From Fluviicola taffensis DSM 16823 (GTDB lineage Bacteria > Bacteroidota > Bacteroidia > Flavobacteriales_D > Crocinitomicaceae), in NCBI RefSeq assembly GCF_000194605.1, contig NC_015321.1:930001-994000 (forward strand): a DNA stretch of 64,000 nucleotides. The letters are read 5' to 3'. A program made the translations under genes and the position numbers. Shown in pieces: positions 3,715-8,797 of the stretch. The notes beneath the pieces are model-generated. The model was not told the DNA's origin and made no database searches. It saw only the letters and a list, made by a program, of their open reading frames with translations. Position 1 is the stretch's first letter. Each line of letters opens with the position of its first letter.

Positions 3715-4032
3715 TTAGTATGCTTCAATCGAAGGATCAACTTCTTCAATCCAAGCTAAAATTCCACCTTCTAGATTGTACAAATTCGTATAACCGTGTT
3801 CTTGTTCCAAAAACTGGATAACGTTTGCGCTTCTCTTTCCAGAACGACAATGAACAACTACTTTTTTGTCTTTATCAATTTGTCTGAATTCCGCAGGAAC
3901 CTCGTTCATTGGAATTAAAATACCATTCAAGGTACAAATGTCATTTTCATACGATTCGCGAACATCAATTAATTGGAAATCTTCGTTTGCATCTTTCCAC
4001 GATTTCAATTCTGTAACTGTAATACTTTTCAT
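3715..4032 (-). CDS. Single-domain rhodanese-like protein
   Basis: This 105-aa protein spans one rhodanese fold: LIDVRESYEN near residues 21-30 and the active-site loop HCRSGKR with Cys62. Rhodaneses carry sulfur as a cysteine persulfide and move it to acceptors such as cyanide, thiols or thiocarboxylate carriers. No signal peptide is present, so it is cytoplasmic. The active-site Arg and Gly pattern is intact, so it is probably active. The next gene downstream on the strand, the kinase, is about 95 nt away across repeat-like DNA, so this is probably a monocistronic gene. Confidence 0.9.
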   Translation of the reverse strand: MKSITVTELKSWKDANEDFQLIDVRESYENDICTLNGILIPMNEVPAEFRQIDKDKKVVVHCRSGKRSANVIQFLEQEHGYTNLYNLEGGILAWIEEVDPSIEAY

Positions 4033-4926: not shown

Positions 4927-5034
4927 ATTGAATGATTTTAAGTCTTTACGAATCTGCTGTTGCAGATTTCTTTTATAACCAATGCTTTTCTTTTTAACGT
5001 TTGAAAACATGATTTCGTATTATACAAGAAAACT

Positions 5035-5151
5035 TCAACTACAATAACTAGACCATTTAATTTTTCCAAAGAAATGCTTCGCAATCATCCGAAGGCATAT
5101 TTGACCGCAGTCCATCGTGTCTGGTTGTTGGTAGAAAGCAAATTTATTCAT
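5035..5151 (-). pseudogene. Remnant of a C39 peptidase-containing ABC exporter (first 38 codons)
   Basis: Too short for ordinary gene calling. From the ATG at 5151 the frame reads MNKFAFYQQPDTMDCGQICL, then RMIAKHFFGKIK and a stop at 5035. This is the start of the C39 double-glycine peptidase domain of bacteriocin-type ABC exporters: oxyanion Gln 8 or 9 and catalytic Cys15 in the DCG motif are present. The His/Asp of the catalytic triad, the membrane domain and the ATPase are all absent; the DUF4197 gene follows directly. The ATG overlaps the stop of the ATP-grasp gene by 8 nt, the layout of a translationally coupled operon. I infer a deletion that left only the 5' end. Confidence 0.75.
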
Positions 5152-5992
5152 TTTCAGAATAGATTAAGTCGAATGATCCTGAATTTAATCCTAGTTTTCT
5201 CATTAGTAAACGAAGTTTATTTTCTATTTCAATAGGTAAGGTAAATGGTAAAATACGGTTTGGCTTAGTTTTGTCATAATGTCTAAAATCCAATGAAGTT
5301 TGTACATTGTTTTGACTAATTATGGCGGAAGAATAGAAAATGTCACCATGATAAACAGATCTTATTTCAAATTTTTTTACAATTTGTTCTTGAACAAGAG
5401 TGTAAAAAAAAGACTCTGAAACGTCATTTTCGTTCAATAAAGCGGTAAAAGCAGAATAAAAAGATGTTTTATTTATGTTTTCAATTGGCATAATTTCGAA
5501 AATCGGTTTGCTGATAAGGTCTTTTGACTGTCTAAATTCCTTTAGGTCACTTTTTTTAGTAACAATAGATGTATTTGGAATGGAAAGACCTGTTTTTTGC
5601 GCTTCAATCAGAACTATTAATTTATTTATTACGCCAACAAAATTCCCAACAACTATTTTTTTCATTAATGAATGCTTAATAGCTTTTTCTATTGTTTCAA
5701 TTTCATTTTCCAGATAATTCTCATATTGAAAATTAGAATTCCTTTCGATTCCAAAGTCGAAAATTTTAAGTCCACCTCTTCGATACCAGACACTTGAAAT
5801 TTCAGAATATTTAATTACATTCTCACCGACTTTTGCTTCCCAATAAATATTGTTGGAATTAAGTATTTCAAATGTTTGTAGAAGAAGTTTATCCTCAGGG
5901 TTTAATCGAATAAATTTTTTATTCAAATACATCAACCAATTAATAACAGCCGTTGTTGATGGATCGTTTTCAATACTGAAAATAAGTACCAT
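5144..5992 (-). CDS. ATP-grasp peptide maturase of grasp-with-spasm type (GwsG-like), C-terminally truncated
   Basis: This 282-aa protein begins VLIFSIENDPSTTAVINWL and has VWYRRGG near residues 67-73, both typical of ATP-grasp enzymes that make ester or amide links in graspetides (omega-ester peptides). The body follows the family up to GLNSGSFDLIYSENE and then stops. In the family, this point is followed by a strand carrying a FLEVNPxGQ-type motif whose Glu and Asn bind Mg-ATP, plus about 30 more residues; all of that is missing. The enzyme is therefore probably inactive. Its stop overlaps the start of the C39 exporter remnant. No SPASM radical-SAM partner is present. The family call is good; inactivity is inferred. 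Confidence 0.75.
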   Translation of the reverse strand: MVLIFSIENDPSTTAVINWLMYLNKKFIRLNPEDKLLLQTFEILNSNNIYWEAKVGENVIKYSEISSVWYRRGGLKIFDFGIERNSNFQYENYLENEIETIEKAIKHSLMKKIVVGNFVGVINKLIVLIEAQKTGLSIPNTSIVTKKSDLKEFRQSKDLISKPIFEIMPIENINKTSFYSAFTALLNENDVSESFFYTLVQEQIVKKFEIRSVYHGDIFYSSAIISQNNVQTSLDFRHYDKTKPNRILPFTLPIEIENKLRLLMRKLGLNSGSFDLIYSENE

Positions 5993-6960
5993 TATTCATT
6001 TTTAAAATTGCAAAACTCTTCACTAGTCAAAAATCGATATTGTTGTTGCTTTTGTAGCATGTTTAAGGGGGAAAGAAATAAAAATTGTCTCAATGAATCT
6101 ACTTCTTTTTCAGACAAATTTGGATGAAAAGGGGGAAGTAAAACTTGTTTGTTTTTTCTATCATATTTTAGACCATAATTAAAATAAATATTAGGATAAT
6201 AAAAATTACAAAGTTGTTGTTTTTGATTGTCTAATCCCAAGATATGACCTTCAGAATCAATTTTGAACAGATAACCTTTGGAAATTGCAGCTCGTTCTAC
6301 AATTGCAGCTCCAACCATTCGATTCAATTTACCTTCTTTTATCATAGTTTGAATGGTGTTGAATTCAGAACTTAGGTTATTCCATCCAGCATGAATTAAT
6401 AATATTTCCAATTGCCCATAGTTTTTGATACTTAGATTATTACGATCAAAATAATCAGATCTATCGTGCATAAAACGGATTAAAATCTTTGCATTCTTGC
6501 TATCCACATAATCCACTTTTTTCGGAAAATAACGTCTAGCAATTTGATCCCGAAATAACATCCATTTAAATATTTTTGGTTTTAAAATTGGTTTCAACTT
6601 ATGATCTCGATAAATTTTTCGGAGTTGTTTTTTGGAGAAGGGAATATTTCTTCTTTTGCACAAGGCAAAAATTTCCTTTTTTCTTTCACCAATAGAAAAA
6701 GTTTGCGCAATTAACAAAGTATCCAAGATTTTATGTTCTAAGTAATATGGATAAATCGCACTTGAATAATCCGTATCAAATCCTACAGATGCACTGAATG
6801 CTTTTTGATAGTATAAATTCGTGGAATCTATTTTGCCCTGTGATCGATAAAATTCTGCAGAGTCAATACATGTATAGTAAAAACTATAATTTAATTGACT
6901 GAATGCTTTTGTGGAAATTAAAAAACTAAAAAATATTACTATTATTTTAAAATATTTCAT
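5992..6960 (-). CDS. Secreted protein of unknown function in the graspetide locus
   Basis: This 322-aa protein starts with a signal peptide (KIIVIFFSFLISTKAFSQ) followed by a TPR-like pair of helices (CIDSAEFYRSQGKIDSTNLYY) and a Lys-rich centre. A segment GQLEILLIHAGWNNLSSEF followed by MVGAAIVERAA loosely recalls the DUF6624 family (LLVQHAD-type motif); this is only a suggestion. Its stop and the ATG of the ATP-grasp gene share a base (both touch 5992), so the two are tightly coupled. Context suggests a role linked to the modified peptide, such as periplasmic processing, immunity or a target, but none of this is shown. It appears AT-richer than neighbouring housekeeping genes. Confidence 0.7.
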   Translation of the reverse strand: MKYFKIIVIFFSFLISTKAFSQLNYSFYYTCIDSAEFYRSQGKIDSTNLYYQKAFSASVGFDTDYSSAIYPYYLEHKILDTLLIAQTFSIGERKKEIFALCKRRNIPFSKKQLRKIYRDHKLKPILKPKIFKWMLFRDQIARRYFPKKVDYVDSKNAKILIRFMHDRSDYFDRNNLSIKNYGQLEILLIHAGWNNLSSEFNTIQTMIKEGKLNRMVGAAIVERAAISKGYLFKIDSEGHILGLDNQKQQLCNFYYPNIYFNYGLKYDRKNKQVLLPPFHPNLSEKEVDSLRQFLFLSPLNMLQKQQQYRFLTSEEFCNFKNE

Positions 6961-7013
6961 TGATTTGGAGATAATAAGAGAGGTACATTAAATGTACCTC
7001 TCTTTAGACCTAA

Positions 7014-7214
7014 TTAACCTACATTATAATCGTAATGACTAGGTTCGTTTGTAATGTCATTACCTGTTTCATTATTTTTCTTTAAAATGTAATAAGTGTC
7101 AGTTTGAACTTGACCCCCAGTCATAGAACTTGTTTCGTTAGTTTTCCATGCTCCCCCAGTTACATCATTTAATTGATTGATTTTGAAAACTTCAAGATTA
7201 TTTAACTTTTTCAT
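7014..7214 (-). CDS. Graspetide precursor peptide with double-glycine leader
   Basis: This 66-aa peptide has a leader rich in Asn/Leu (MKKLNNLEVFKINQLNDVTG) that ends in Gly20-Gly21, the cleavage signature for C39 exporter peptidases. The core of about 45 residues is rich in Thr/Ser and Asp/Glu/Asn, the residues linked by ATP-grasp enzymes in omega-ester peptides. It matches the general form of Bacteroidota GG-leader natural product precursors. A purine-rich AGGAAGG lies just upstream of the ATG at 7214. It heads the operon with the unknown secreted protein (53 nt gap) and the truncated ATP-grasp gene. Because the modifying enzyme and exporter are broken, mature product is unlikely unless supplied in trans. 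Confidence 0.75.
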   Translation of the reverse strand: MKKLNNLEVFKINQLNDVTGGAWKTNETSSMTGGQVQTDTYYILKKNNETGNDITNEPSHYDYNVG

Positions 7215-7275
7215 GTTTTTTCCTTCCTACTCATACTTGCTTTTCGGTTACCGCCAGCACTATTAAAATAACAAC

Positions 7276-7391
7276 TAACTTTGAAGGCTGCATTAGTGCG
7301 ATGCAGTAACAAAGTTGCGCTAATCCATTGCCCTGCAATGCGAGGGAAGCGTCTTTGGAGAATGGGGATGTTGCAGCATCTCCATTTTTTT
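7276..7391 (+). ncRNA. Candidate structured RNA: three stem-loops followed by a terminator
   Basis: Perfect helices on the plus strand are AACTTTG (7277-7283) with CAAAGTT (7310-7316), enclosing CTGCAT (7288-7293) with ATGCAG (7301-7306); then CATTGC (7326-7331) with GCAATG (7335-7340); then a terminator hairpin at 7362-7385 with a T run to 7391. TAACTTTG at 7276-7283 also fits the TAnnTTTG promoter box, which would place a transcript start near 7288 and give an RNA of about 100 nt, although no upstream TTG box is seen at the right distance. It may instead be a palindromic mobile repeat cluster. No known RNA family is recognised. Confidence 0.4.
7362..7391 (+). terminator. Rho-independent terminator with no plus-strand gene upstream
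   Basis: ATGGGGATG (7362-7370) pairs with CATCTCCAT (7377-7385) as a 9-bp stem with one G-U pair and a TTGCAG loop, followed by six T residues (7386-7391). All protein genes on the left run on the minus strand, so this terminator must serve a short plus-strand transcript or be a relic. Confidence 0.65.
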
Positions 7392-7726
7392 AATACAAAA
7401 CTAAAACGACTTACTAAAGCTGTAAAGAATTTAATTCTTAAGCAATTTCATTTATTTAAAGAGTGTCTCCAACCTGAAATATTCTTTTGAAATGATTTGG
7501 ATATGGTATATAATTAATTCTCGGTTTAGTAATTTAAGTTAGTCAGTTTCAAACTTATAAAAAAAAAATTTAAGATCGCCATTTCCTTGTTTTTATTCAT
7601 TCTAAATAATAAGACGTTTACTCTCCTTACAATAAATTGGTGTTGTATCAGTAAAAAATGAAAGAAAACTTGGTCTGATAGATTATTAAACTCTTCATTA
7701 AATTTAATCTGTAAAAATGAGCTAAC
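7392..7726. other. AT-rich gene-poor stretch
   Basis: There is no convincing gene on either strand. The frames open here give low-complexity Phe/Leu/Asn/Lys-rich translations with no motif or ribosome-binding context. No tandem repeat was noticed. Together with 7215-7391 this is the longest gene-poor interval of the window. Confidence 0.5.
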
Positions 7727-7786: not shown

Positions 7787-8797
7787 TTAAAACCCCTGAA
7801 CTCCATTTACCGTTGTATACTTCAAGATATTTTTCTTATCTGGATGAATACGTGCAAATGCAGATTGAACAGCCAACGTTCCTTCGTGAAACCCACATAA
7901 AATGAGTTTCAACTTATTTTCATACGTATTCACATCACCGATTGCGTAAATTCCTGGGATATTCGTTGAATAATCCAAGGTATTCACTTTAATGGCATTT
8001 TTCTCAATTTCCAATCCCCAATCGGCAATTGGACCCAAAGATGGTTTTAGACCAAACAAAGGAATAAAATGATCTGTTTCCTGTAAAATTTCTCCTTGAG
8101 TGTTGTGTTGAATTTTCACCTGTTTCAAAGAACCTTCTCCCTCTACTCCAACAACCTCAGCTTCTGTAATTAATTTGATCTGACCACATTCAGCCATGTC
8201 GATTACTTTTTGCACAGAATCTAAATGTCCGCGGAAAGATGCGCTTCGGTGAACCAAAACAACTTCTTTCGCTATTTTCTTTTCCACCAAGAAGATTGAC
8301 CAATCCAATGCTGAATCGCCACCTCCTGAAATTACACAACGTTTTCCACGATAAAACTCAGGATCTTTGATGATGTATTCAATTCCTTTATCCTCAAAAT
8401 CAGCTAAGTTTGAAATAGGAGGTTTACGTGGCTCGAAAACACCCAATCCACCTGCAATCATGACAATTGGAGCCAAATGTTTCGTCCCTTTAACCGTTGT
8501 GACGATGAATTTTCCGTCTTCTGTTTTATCAATGGTCATTGCAGCTTCACCCAATGTAAAACCTGGTTTAAACGGAGCAGCTTGTTCCATCAAATTATCC
8601 ACTAAATCTCCAGCCAAAACCGACGGAAATCCAGGAATATCATAAATCGGTTTTTTTGGATAAATTTCTGAACATTGTCCGCCAGGCTGAGGTAAAGAAT
8701 CAATTAAGTGGCAATGTAATTTAAGCAAACCTGCTTCAAAAACGGTGAAAAGACCTACAGGTCCAGCACCTATAATTATTATATCAGTTTCAATCAT
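7787..8797 (-). CDS. Ferredoxin/flavodoxin--NADP+ reductase, thioredoxin-reductase-like (YumC type)
   Basis: This 336-aa flavoprotein has the FAD-binding Rossmann motif IIIGAGPVGLF (residues 7-17), a PQPGGQC loop, the NADPH-binding motif ISGGGDSALDW near residue 160, and the C-terminal FAD motif YAIGDVN near 291. It lacks the CxxC redox pair of true thioredoxin reductases, which marks the ferredoxin-NADP reductase type 2 group. Its role is electron exchange between NADP(H) and ferredoxin or flavodoxin in the cytoplasm. A TATTTTTG promoter box lies about 53 nt upstream of the ATG. It is monocistronic with a terminator downstream. Confidence 0.88.
   Translation of the reverse strand: MIETDIIIIGAGPVGLFTVFEAGLLKLHCHLIDSLPQPGGQCSEIYPKKPIYDIPGFPSVLAGDLVDNLMEQAAPFKPGFTLGEAAMTIDKTEDGKFIVTTVKGTKHLAPIVMIAGGLGVFEPRKPPISNLADFEDKGIEYIIKDPEFYRGKRCVISGGGDSALDWSIFLVEKKIAKEVVLVHRSASFRGHLDSVQKVIDMAECGQIKLITEAEVVGVEGEGSLKQVKIQHNTQGEILQETDHFIPLFGLKPSLGPIADWGLEIEKNAIKVNTLDYSTNIPGIYAIGDVNTYENKLKLILCGFHEGTLAVQSAFARIHPDKKNILKYTTVNGVQGF

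Follow-up and report, generated by a model that had tools for sequence, protein, structure and literature searches.

In this work, we have analysed a grasp-with-spasm graspetide locus on the minus strand of the chromosome of the freshwater bacterium Fluviicola taffensis, a single contig of 4,633,577 bases. It lies in a window of 64,000 nucleotides (nt), bases 930,001–994,000 of that contig, and unless a kilobase (kb) position in the genome is given, coordinates refer to this window. Our results show that the ATP-grasp maturase gene is truncated and lacks the C-terminal motif of its family, that the SPASM gene is missing, that the exporter gene is broken near its start, and that the locus sits between two genes that are neighbours in related genomes. 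The preliminary description had listed four genes, namely a GG-leader peptide, a secreted protein, an ATP-grasp enzyme and an exporter start, and all four are present on the minus strand where it had placed them. The first is an intact open reading frame (ORF) for a precursor peptide of 66 amino acids (aa) at 7014–7214, with an MKKL start, two GG motifs and a weak match to the ComC leader (Pfam E 0.32). A perfect hairpin with 14-nt arms and 1 nt between them (6976–7004, minus) occupies the gap to the next gene, an intact ORF for a helical secreted protein of 322 aa with a signal-peptide-like start (5992–6960), which overlaps the ATG of the ATP-grasp gene. The latter (5144–5992; TIGR04192) encodes 282 aa and ends at SFDLIYSENE. 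At a first junction (5144–5152, minus), read directly against homologues, its coding sequence is joined within AATGAATAA to the start of a C39 peptidase/ATP-binding cassette (ABC) exporter. The 38-codon ORF seen there covers 5035–5151 on the minus strand, and its ATG (5149–5151) overlaps the end of the ATP-grasp gene; the exporter remnant itself spans 5049–5151, about 38 codons, frameshifted and truncated, in two frames (5151–5077, then 5081–5049). A second junction zone (4992–5048, minus) leads from the end of the remnant to host sequence upstream of a DUF4197 gene.

The truncated ATP-grasp gene

The window protein matches TIGR04192 (E=6.4e-63, 213 bits) over positions 1–285 of 318 and stays under the family cut-off of 230 bits, also when read through its stop (215.9 bits), as a homologous but truncated member. 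It was aligned with 18 proteins from other loci of its own genome and of the family and with 85 frames from 80 named loci (L086–L165, the best 80 of 156 relatives), 104 proteins in all; the frameshifted protein of G006 was left out of the conservation counts and of the tree, which leaves 102 comparison proteins. All 102 reach 32–62 residues beyond the end of the window protein, and all carry the (E/D)xN of the FLExNP motif (N in 102, E in 95, D in 7), which is absent from the window protein. The Glu/Asn pair of this motif binds Mg-ATP in the ATP-grasp fold, and in an intact paralogue the motif lines up with FLEINPVG of 5ig9, a ligase of solved structure. The loss of the C-terminus with its Glu/Asn motif, as first suggested, is thus borne out by every protein compared. 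A first filter had set aside seven main loci of Pedobacter and one extra frame of L150 as motif-less; in the alignment, the seven have D in place of E, and the L150 frame reads YLETNP.

Could the 282-aa protein be a minimal functional form, working as a non-catalytic leader-binding or partner protein, like the truncated ATP-grasp proteins reported in another graspetide branch? Partner proteins in graspetide synthesis are reported in passages of PMC13097080, and the conserved residues of the N-terminal part are kept in the window protein. We nevertheless regard this as very unlikely, since the cut falls exactly at the join to the exporter start and the locus has no catalytic ATP-grasp enzyme to partner. 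Furthermore, the preliminary description had named a 282-aa form conserved across species, with neither SPASM nor exporter genes, as the finding that would speak against decay, and no such form turned up in 59 genomes, in 395 genomes of the phylum or in the 80 named loci. ATP-grasp ORFs of 304–378 aa were found in 80/80 named loci, and each of the 18 other matches in the 59 genomes has a frame of 320 aa or longer, that of G006 carrying a frameshift close to its end. Among the 395 phylum genomes, 31 have a match to the ATP-grasp family; the clearly interrupted members besides that of the window are those of G232 (179 aa, one TAG) and G335 (86 aa, one TGA), and G445 gave a marginal interrupted row (E 9.6e-4). 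A single-protein scan of the genome contigs returned 0 relatives.

The missing SPASM gene and the broken exporter

In complete loci (the 4553-kb locus of the same genome, and those of G013 and G003) the ATP-grasp gene is followed by a small gene and by the SPASM, C39, HlyD and TolC genes, the full order in the 4553-kb locus and its relatives being precursor, secreted protein, ATP-grasp, small gene, SPASM, C39, HlyD and TolC. A SPASM gene comes after the ATP-grasp gene in 79 of the 80 named loci, and the exception, L146, reaches its contig end 210 bases past the ATP-grasp gene. SPASM (TIGR04193) matches in the F. taffensis genome occur only at 3870, 1138 and 4552 kb, and nothing above chance was found at 5144–5151 or elsewhere between 4000 and 9000 of the window, so that the SPASM gene is gone from the locus, as had been supposed. 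Remnants of SPASM, small-gene, HlyD and TolC sequences were sought in the same interval with 49 proteins from other loci, and apart from ATP-grasp and C39 the matches were at chance level. The ORFs include no small gene between the ATP-grasp gene and the exporter start, the LPL family itself not having been searched for.

The exporter start matches Peptidase_C39 with 22.6 bits (cut-off 22) over 27 of 133 positions in frame, and the N-termini of other exporters with 59–78% identity over 23–30 residues (E 9e-7 to 1e-10, in a searched stretch of 5 kb). After MIAKH, the homology changes frame near 5077–5081 and goes on as RSISLEKLNGL at 5081–5049, matching RSISLEKI/L of complete exporters. Thus, the remnant carries a frameshift besides its truncation, and over its final dozen codons the 38-codon ORF is out of the exporter frame. 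In the family, the two blocks are usually separated by three residues, and by this measure the frameshift may have cost 14 nt. The homology stops after about 5049, and complete C39 peptidase and ABC domains are absent. The exporter had been described as cut to a 38-codon start; the truncation holds, but the homology does not end with that ORF and continues in the other frame to about 5049.

To judge how often such loci have exporters, we counted C39 ORFs of at least 600 aa on the same strand within 5 kb downstream, in the 64 named loci whose downstream sequence extends for 5 kb or more. Such an ORF is present in 31 and absent from 33, of which 6 have a C39 ORF elsewhere in the examined stretch; the absence of an exporter alone therefore proves little about decay and was dropped as a test. 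The lack of an exporter is common in grasp-with-spasm loci, whereas a missing ATP-grasp tail and a missing SPASM gene are not. Among 18 other loci of the same genome and of the family, a long C39 ORF is present in 14, including L079 (4.4 kb past SPASM, cut by the end of the stretch) and L072 (on the opposite strand); in L083 the C39 gene is split in two frames, L075 stops at a contig end, and the F. taffensis loci at 1139 and 3871 kb have no intact C39. One intact C39 domain at E<=0.001 is present in the genome, at 4552 kb.

Some of these loci deserve a separate word. At 1139 kb (L029:5861–6317; G000:C1:1137943–1138307) the C39 exporter is in three pieces and three frames; it is broken as in the window, but there the ATP-grasp and SPASM genes are full length. 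The 3871-kb locus (L030) has no downstream exporter; upstream of its precursor, a stretch of 27 residues weakly resembles an exporter C-terminus (E 0.001). In L083 (G006:C42), the ATP-grasp gene is frameshifted near its C-terminus and the C39 gene is split into frames of 227 and 507 aa, which may represent another decaying locus or sequencing errors. That about half of the testable named loci have no nearby C39 exporter raises the question of shared exporters. One possibility, which we hold to be quite unlikely, is that exporter genes have been lost repeatedly from the graspetide loci of this species because one intact C39 transporter serves them all, the window precursor, despite its dead maturase, still feeding the machinery shared by the three other loci.

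Insertion site and proposed history

The locus is an insertion between genes that adjoin each other in relatives. A close DUF4197 orthologue (72–84% identity) is present in 9 of 13 other genomes of the genus, and in all seven relatives examined among these nine the reductase gene (window 7787–8797) adjoins DUF4197 with a gap of about 110–200 nt and no grasp-with-spasm gene (in G008 the reductase gene is cut by a contig end). In the window, the two genes are 2,776 nt apart, and the host block AAACGTTAAAA upstream of DUF4197 (about 4992–5007), within the second junction zone, is recognisable in relatives. The G+C content of the locus is 29.2%, as compared with 36.3% for the window, where only one sliding-window step is lower; the other grasp-with-spasm loci of the genome have 31–33%. 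Direct repeats resembling a target-site duplication formed only chance-level families, and no convincing copy of the upstream region was found elsewhere in the genome (best E 0.037).

Since the junctions are seen in one genome only, they might be attributed to a sequencing or assembly artefact, with no deletions in the organism. This we consider extremely improbable: the genome is finished in a single contig, passages of the F. taffensis RW262 genome report give 351x Illumina and 23x pyrosequence coverage (PMC3236050), and several errors would have to fall together in a short stretch to produce a frameshift and two junctions.

We propose, as very probable, that the locus is the relic of a grasp-with-spasm graspetide cluster that was gained horizontally and was broken by deletions. 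In intact relatives, the ATP-grasp ligase cross-links the GG-leader peptide, and the SPASM radical-SAM protein, aided by the small protein, modifies it further; in many of them, the peptide is exported and trimmed by the C39 peptidase/ABC transporter with HlyD and TolC proteins. In the window, a single deletion may have fused ATP-grasp codon 282 with the exporter start; the ATP-grasp tail with its (E/D)xN would have been lost in it, along with the small gene and the SPASM gene. The exporter frame would have been broken by another, small loss that was out of frame, and yet another would have taken the remaining exporter and any HlyD and TolC genes. We infer the number and order of these deletions, as well as the loss of HlyD and TolC, genes that many loci do not have. 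The preliminary description had proposed a similar course, and the join of ATP-grasp to exporter stands, as it fits the gene order of complete loci; the loss of the exporter as a single truncation does not, since the frameshift has to be added. A microhomology-mediated deletion is plausible at the first junction because AATGAATAA suits both the ...NE end of the ATP-grasp protein and the exporter start. The same string also ends the secreted-protein gene, so it can recur by chance in A+T-rich DNA, and the microhomology is best taken as putative.

Several observations weigh against this history. The precursor, the secreted protein and 282 ATP-grasp codons are all still open, and the comparison covers a single strain of the species. 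The window ATP-grasp protein keeps 13/13 residues that are invariant in 12 representatives, and 17 of the 18 columns with at least 95% conservation among the 102 proteins (among these 102, 79 miss none of the 18, 16 miss one and 7 miss two or more). Its terminal branch in the tree, 1.07, is within the 1.0–1.3 of other distant members. With the conserved residues kept and the branch not long, nothing points to prolonged neutral drift, and therefore either the decay is recent or the remainder is still under selection; on these sequence features the decay is probably recent, and we prefer this to continued selection.

Surviving genes, known systems and meaning

What may have become of the precursor? 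In the proposed decay, the ATP-grasp enzyme is predicted to be catalytically dead, so that the precursor, if still made, would not be matured by the window locus. A phmmer search with the precursor against 8,299 small ORFs gave seven matches at E<=5, a cut set beforehand by our own choice and not by a rule, and none is significant alone (E 0.18–3.9). Six of the seven lie at most 1.6 kb upstream of an ATP-grasp gene in named loci, a position held by 353 of the 6,538 small ORFs of these loci (enrichment P ~2e-8), and the seventh (L072) lies elsewhere. At 7014–7214 the locus has the short GG-leader precursor, located upstream of the ATP-grasp gene, by which grasp-with-spasm loci are recognised. 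Counterparts of the hairpin exist in 7 of the 10 other precursor-to-next-gene gaps that were folded; of the three gaps without one, that of the 3871-kb locus has wrong boundaries and that of G013c is incomplete. A hairpin after the precursor is as expected of an attenuator raising precursor above enzyme expression. The region before the precursor (7215–7480) folds into several stems, with a minimum free energy of about -57 kcal/mol over 266 nt (no shuffle control), and two Rfam matches at the precursor leader region, both below gathering scores, were taken as chance.

An orphan precursor might be served in trans, still expressed, matured by one of three other ATP-grasp/SPASM pairs and exported by the intact C39 transporter at 4552 kb. 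The means are present, as the genome has three other full-length ATP-grasp and SPASM genes and that one intact C39 domain, the precursor frame and the following hairpin are intact, and exporters may be shared because many grasp-with-spasm loci (33/64) have none nearby. But a maturase usually recognises its own leader, the leaders are visibly different, and the window ATP-grasp protein is only 29–33% identical to its three paralogues in the genome. We thus think service in trans unlikely, and keep to the decay of the locus.

For the secreted protein no Pfam or NCBIfam family was found; its AlphaFold2 model is confident (predicted local distance difference test score 86.5) and gave no match in the PDB at E<=0.001. 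Relatives with 27–40% identity are present at 539 kb in the same genome and in G099, G059, G115 and G122. Searches near the 539-kb relative (L068) gave no match to grasp-with-spasm proteins, and none was seen by eye in the ORF lists around those in G099, G059 and G122. Among proteins of at least 180 aa from other grasp-with-spasm loci no match was found. Profile comparison with the secreted proteins of Fluviicola grasp-with-spasm loci points to a weak relation (hhalign probability 45%, E 2e-4), while with two such proteins of the same genome the probability is 0.3%. The gene occupies the usual place of a secreted-protein gene, and the family link is unproved. The 539-kb paralogue (G000:C1:539004–539951; L068:6936–7952; 40% identity) lies near frames that by eye resemble a site-specific recombinase and a transposase.

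The window shares with the grasp-with-spasm loci of Bacteroidota (TIGR04192 and TIGR04193) the ATP-grasp family, the MKKL GG-leader, a secreted protein before the ATP-grasp gene, the C39 start and their order, but it differs from them in having no ATP-grasp tail, small gene or SPASM gene, and in its frameshifted and truncated exporter. The 4553-kb locus (L028) has the same gene order and is complete with precursors, secreted protein, ATP-grasp, small gene, SPASM, C39, HlyD and TolC; its ATP-grasp protein is 33% identical to that of the window, which is not a recent duplicate. The microviridin ligases MvdC and MvdD (solved structures 5ig9 and 7m4s) belong to the same ATP-grasp superfamily, and the tail motif aligns in the intact paralogue, but the window protein scores 81 and 70 bits against NCBIfam cut-offs of 425 and 475, below both. 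To our knowledge, there is no SPASM partner in that ligase family.

We equate these loci with the Bacteroidetes 'branch 5' of PMC8939145 from its description there. Passages of that paper report Bacteroides-specific loci in which ATP-grasp and SPASM are accompanied by secreted cluster 23 proteins, by MKKL leaders and by a small LPL protein encoded immediately upstream of SPASM; according to them, ATP-grasp loci do not typically code for C39 peptidases. A literature search gave no paper on grasp-with-spasm or on Fluviicola graspetides, and no title concerning this locus among those listed.

This is ordinary gene decay, in a decayed member of a known cluster type. It offers an easily read case of the decay of a peptide-natural-product cluster following horizontal gain, in which the maturase and the exporter are broken and the precursor and its leader are preserved. 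If exporters were shared, exporter-less loci would have to be counted differently. Mining tools that seek an ATP-grasp gene near a GG precursor would score the locus as a working cluster.
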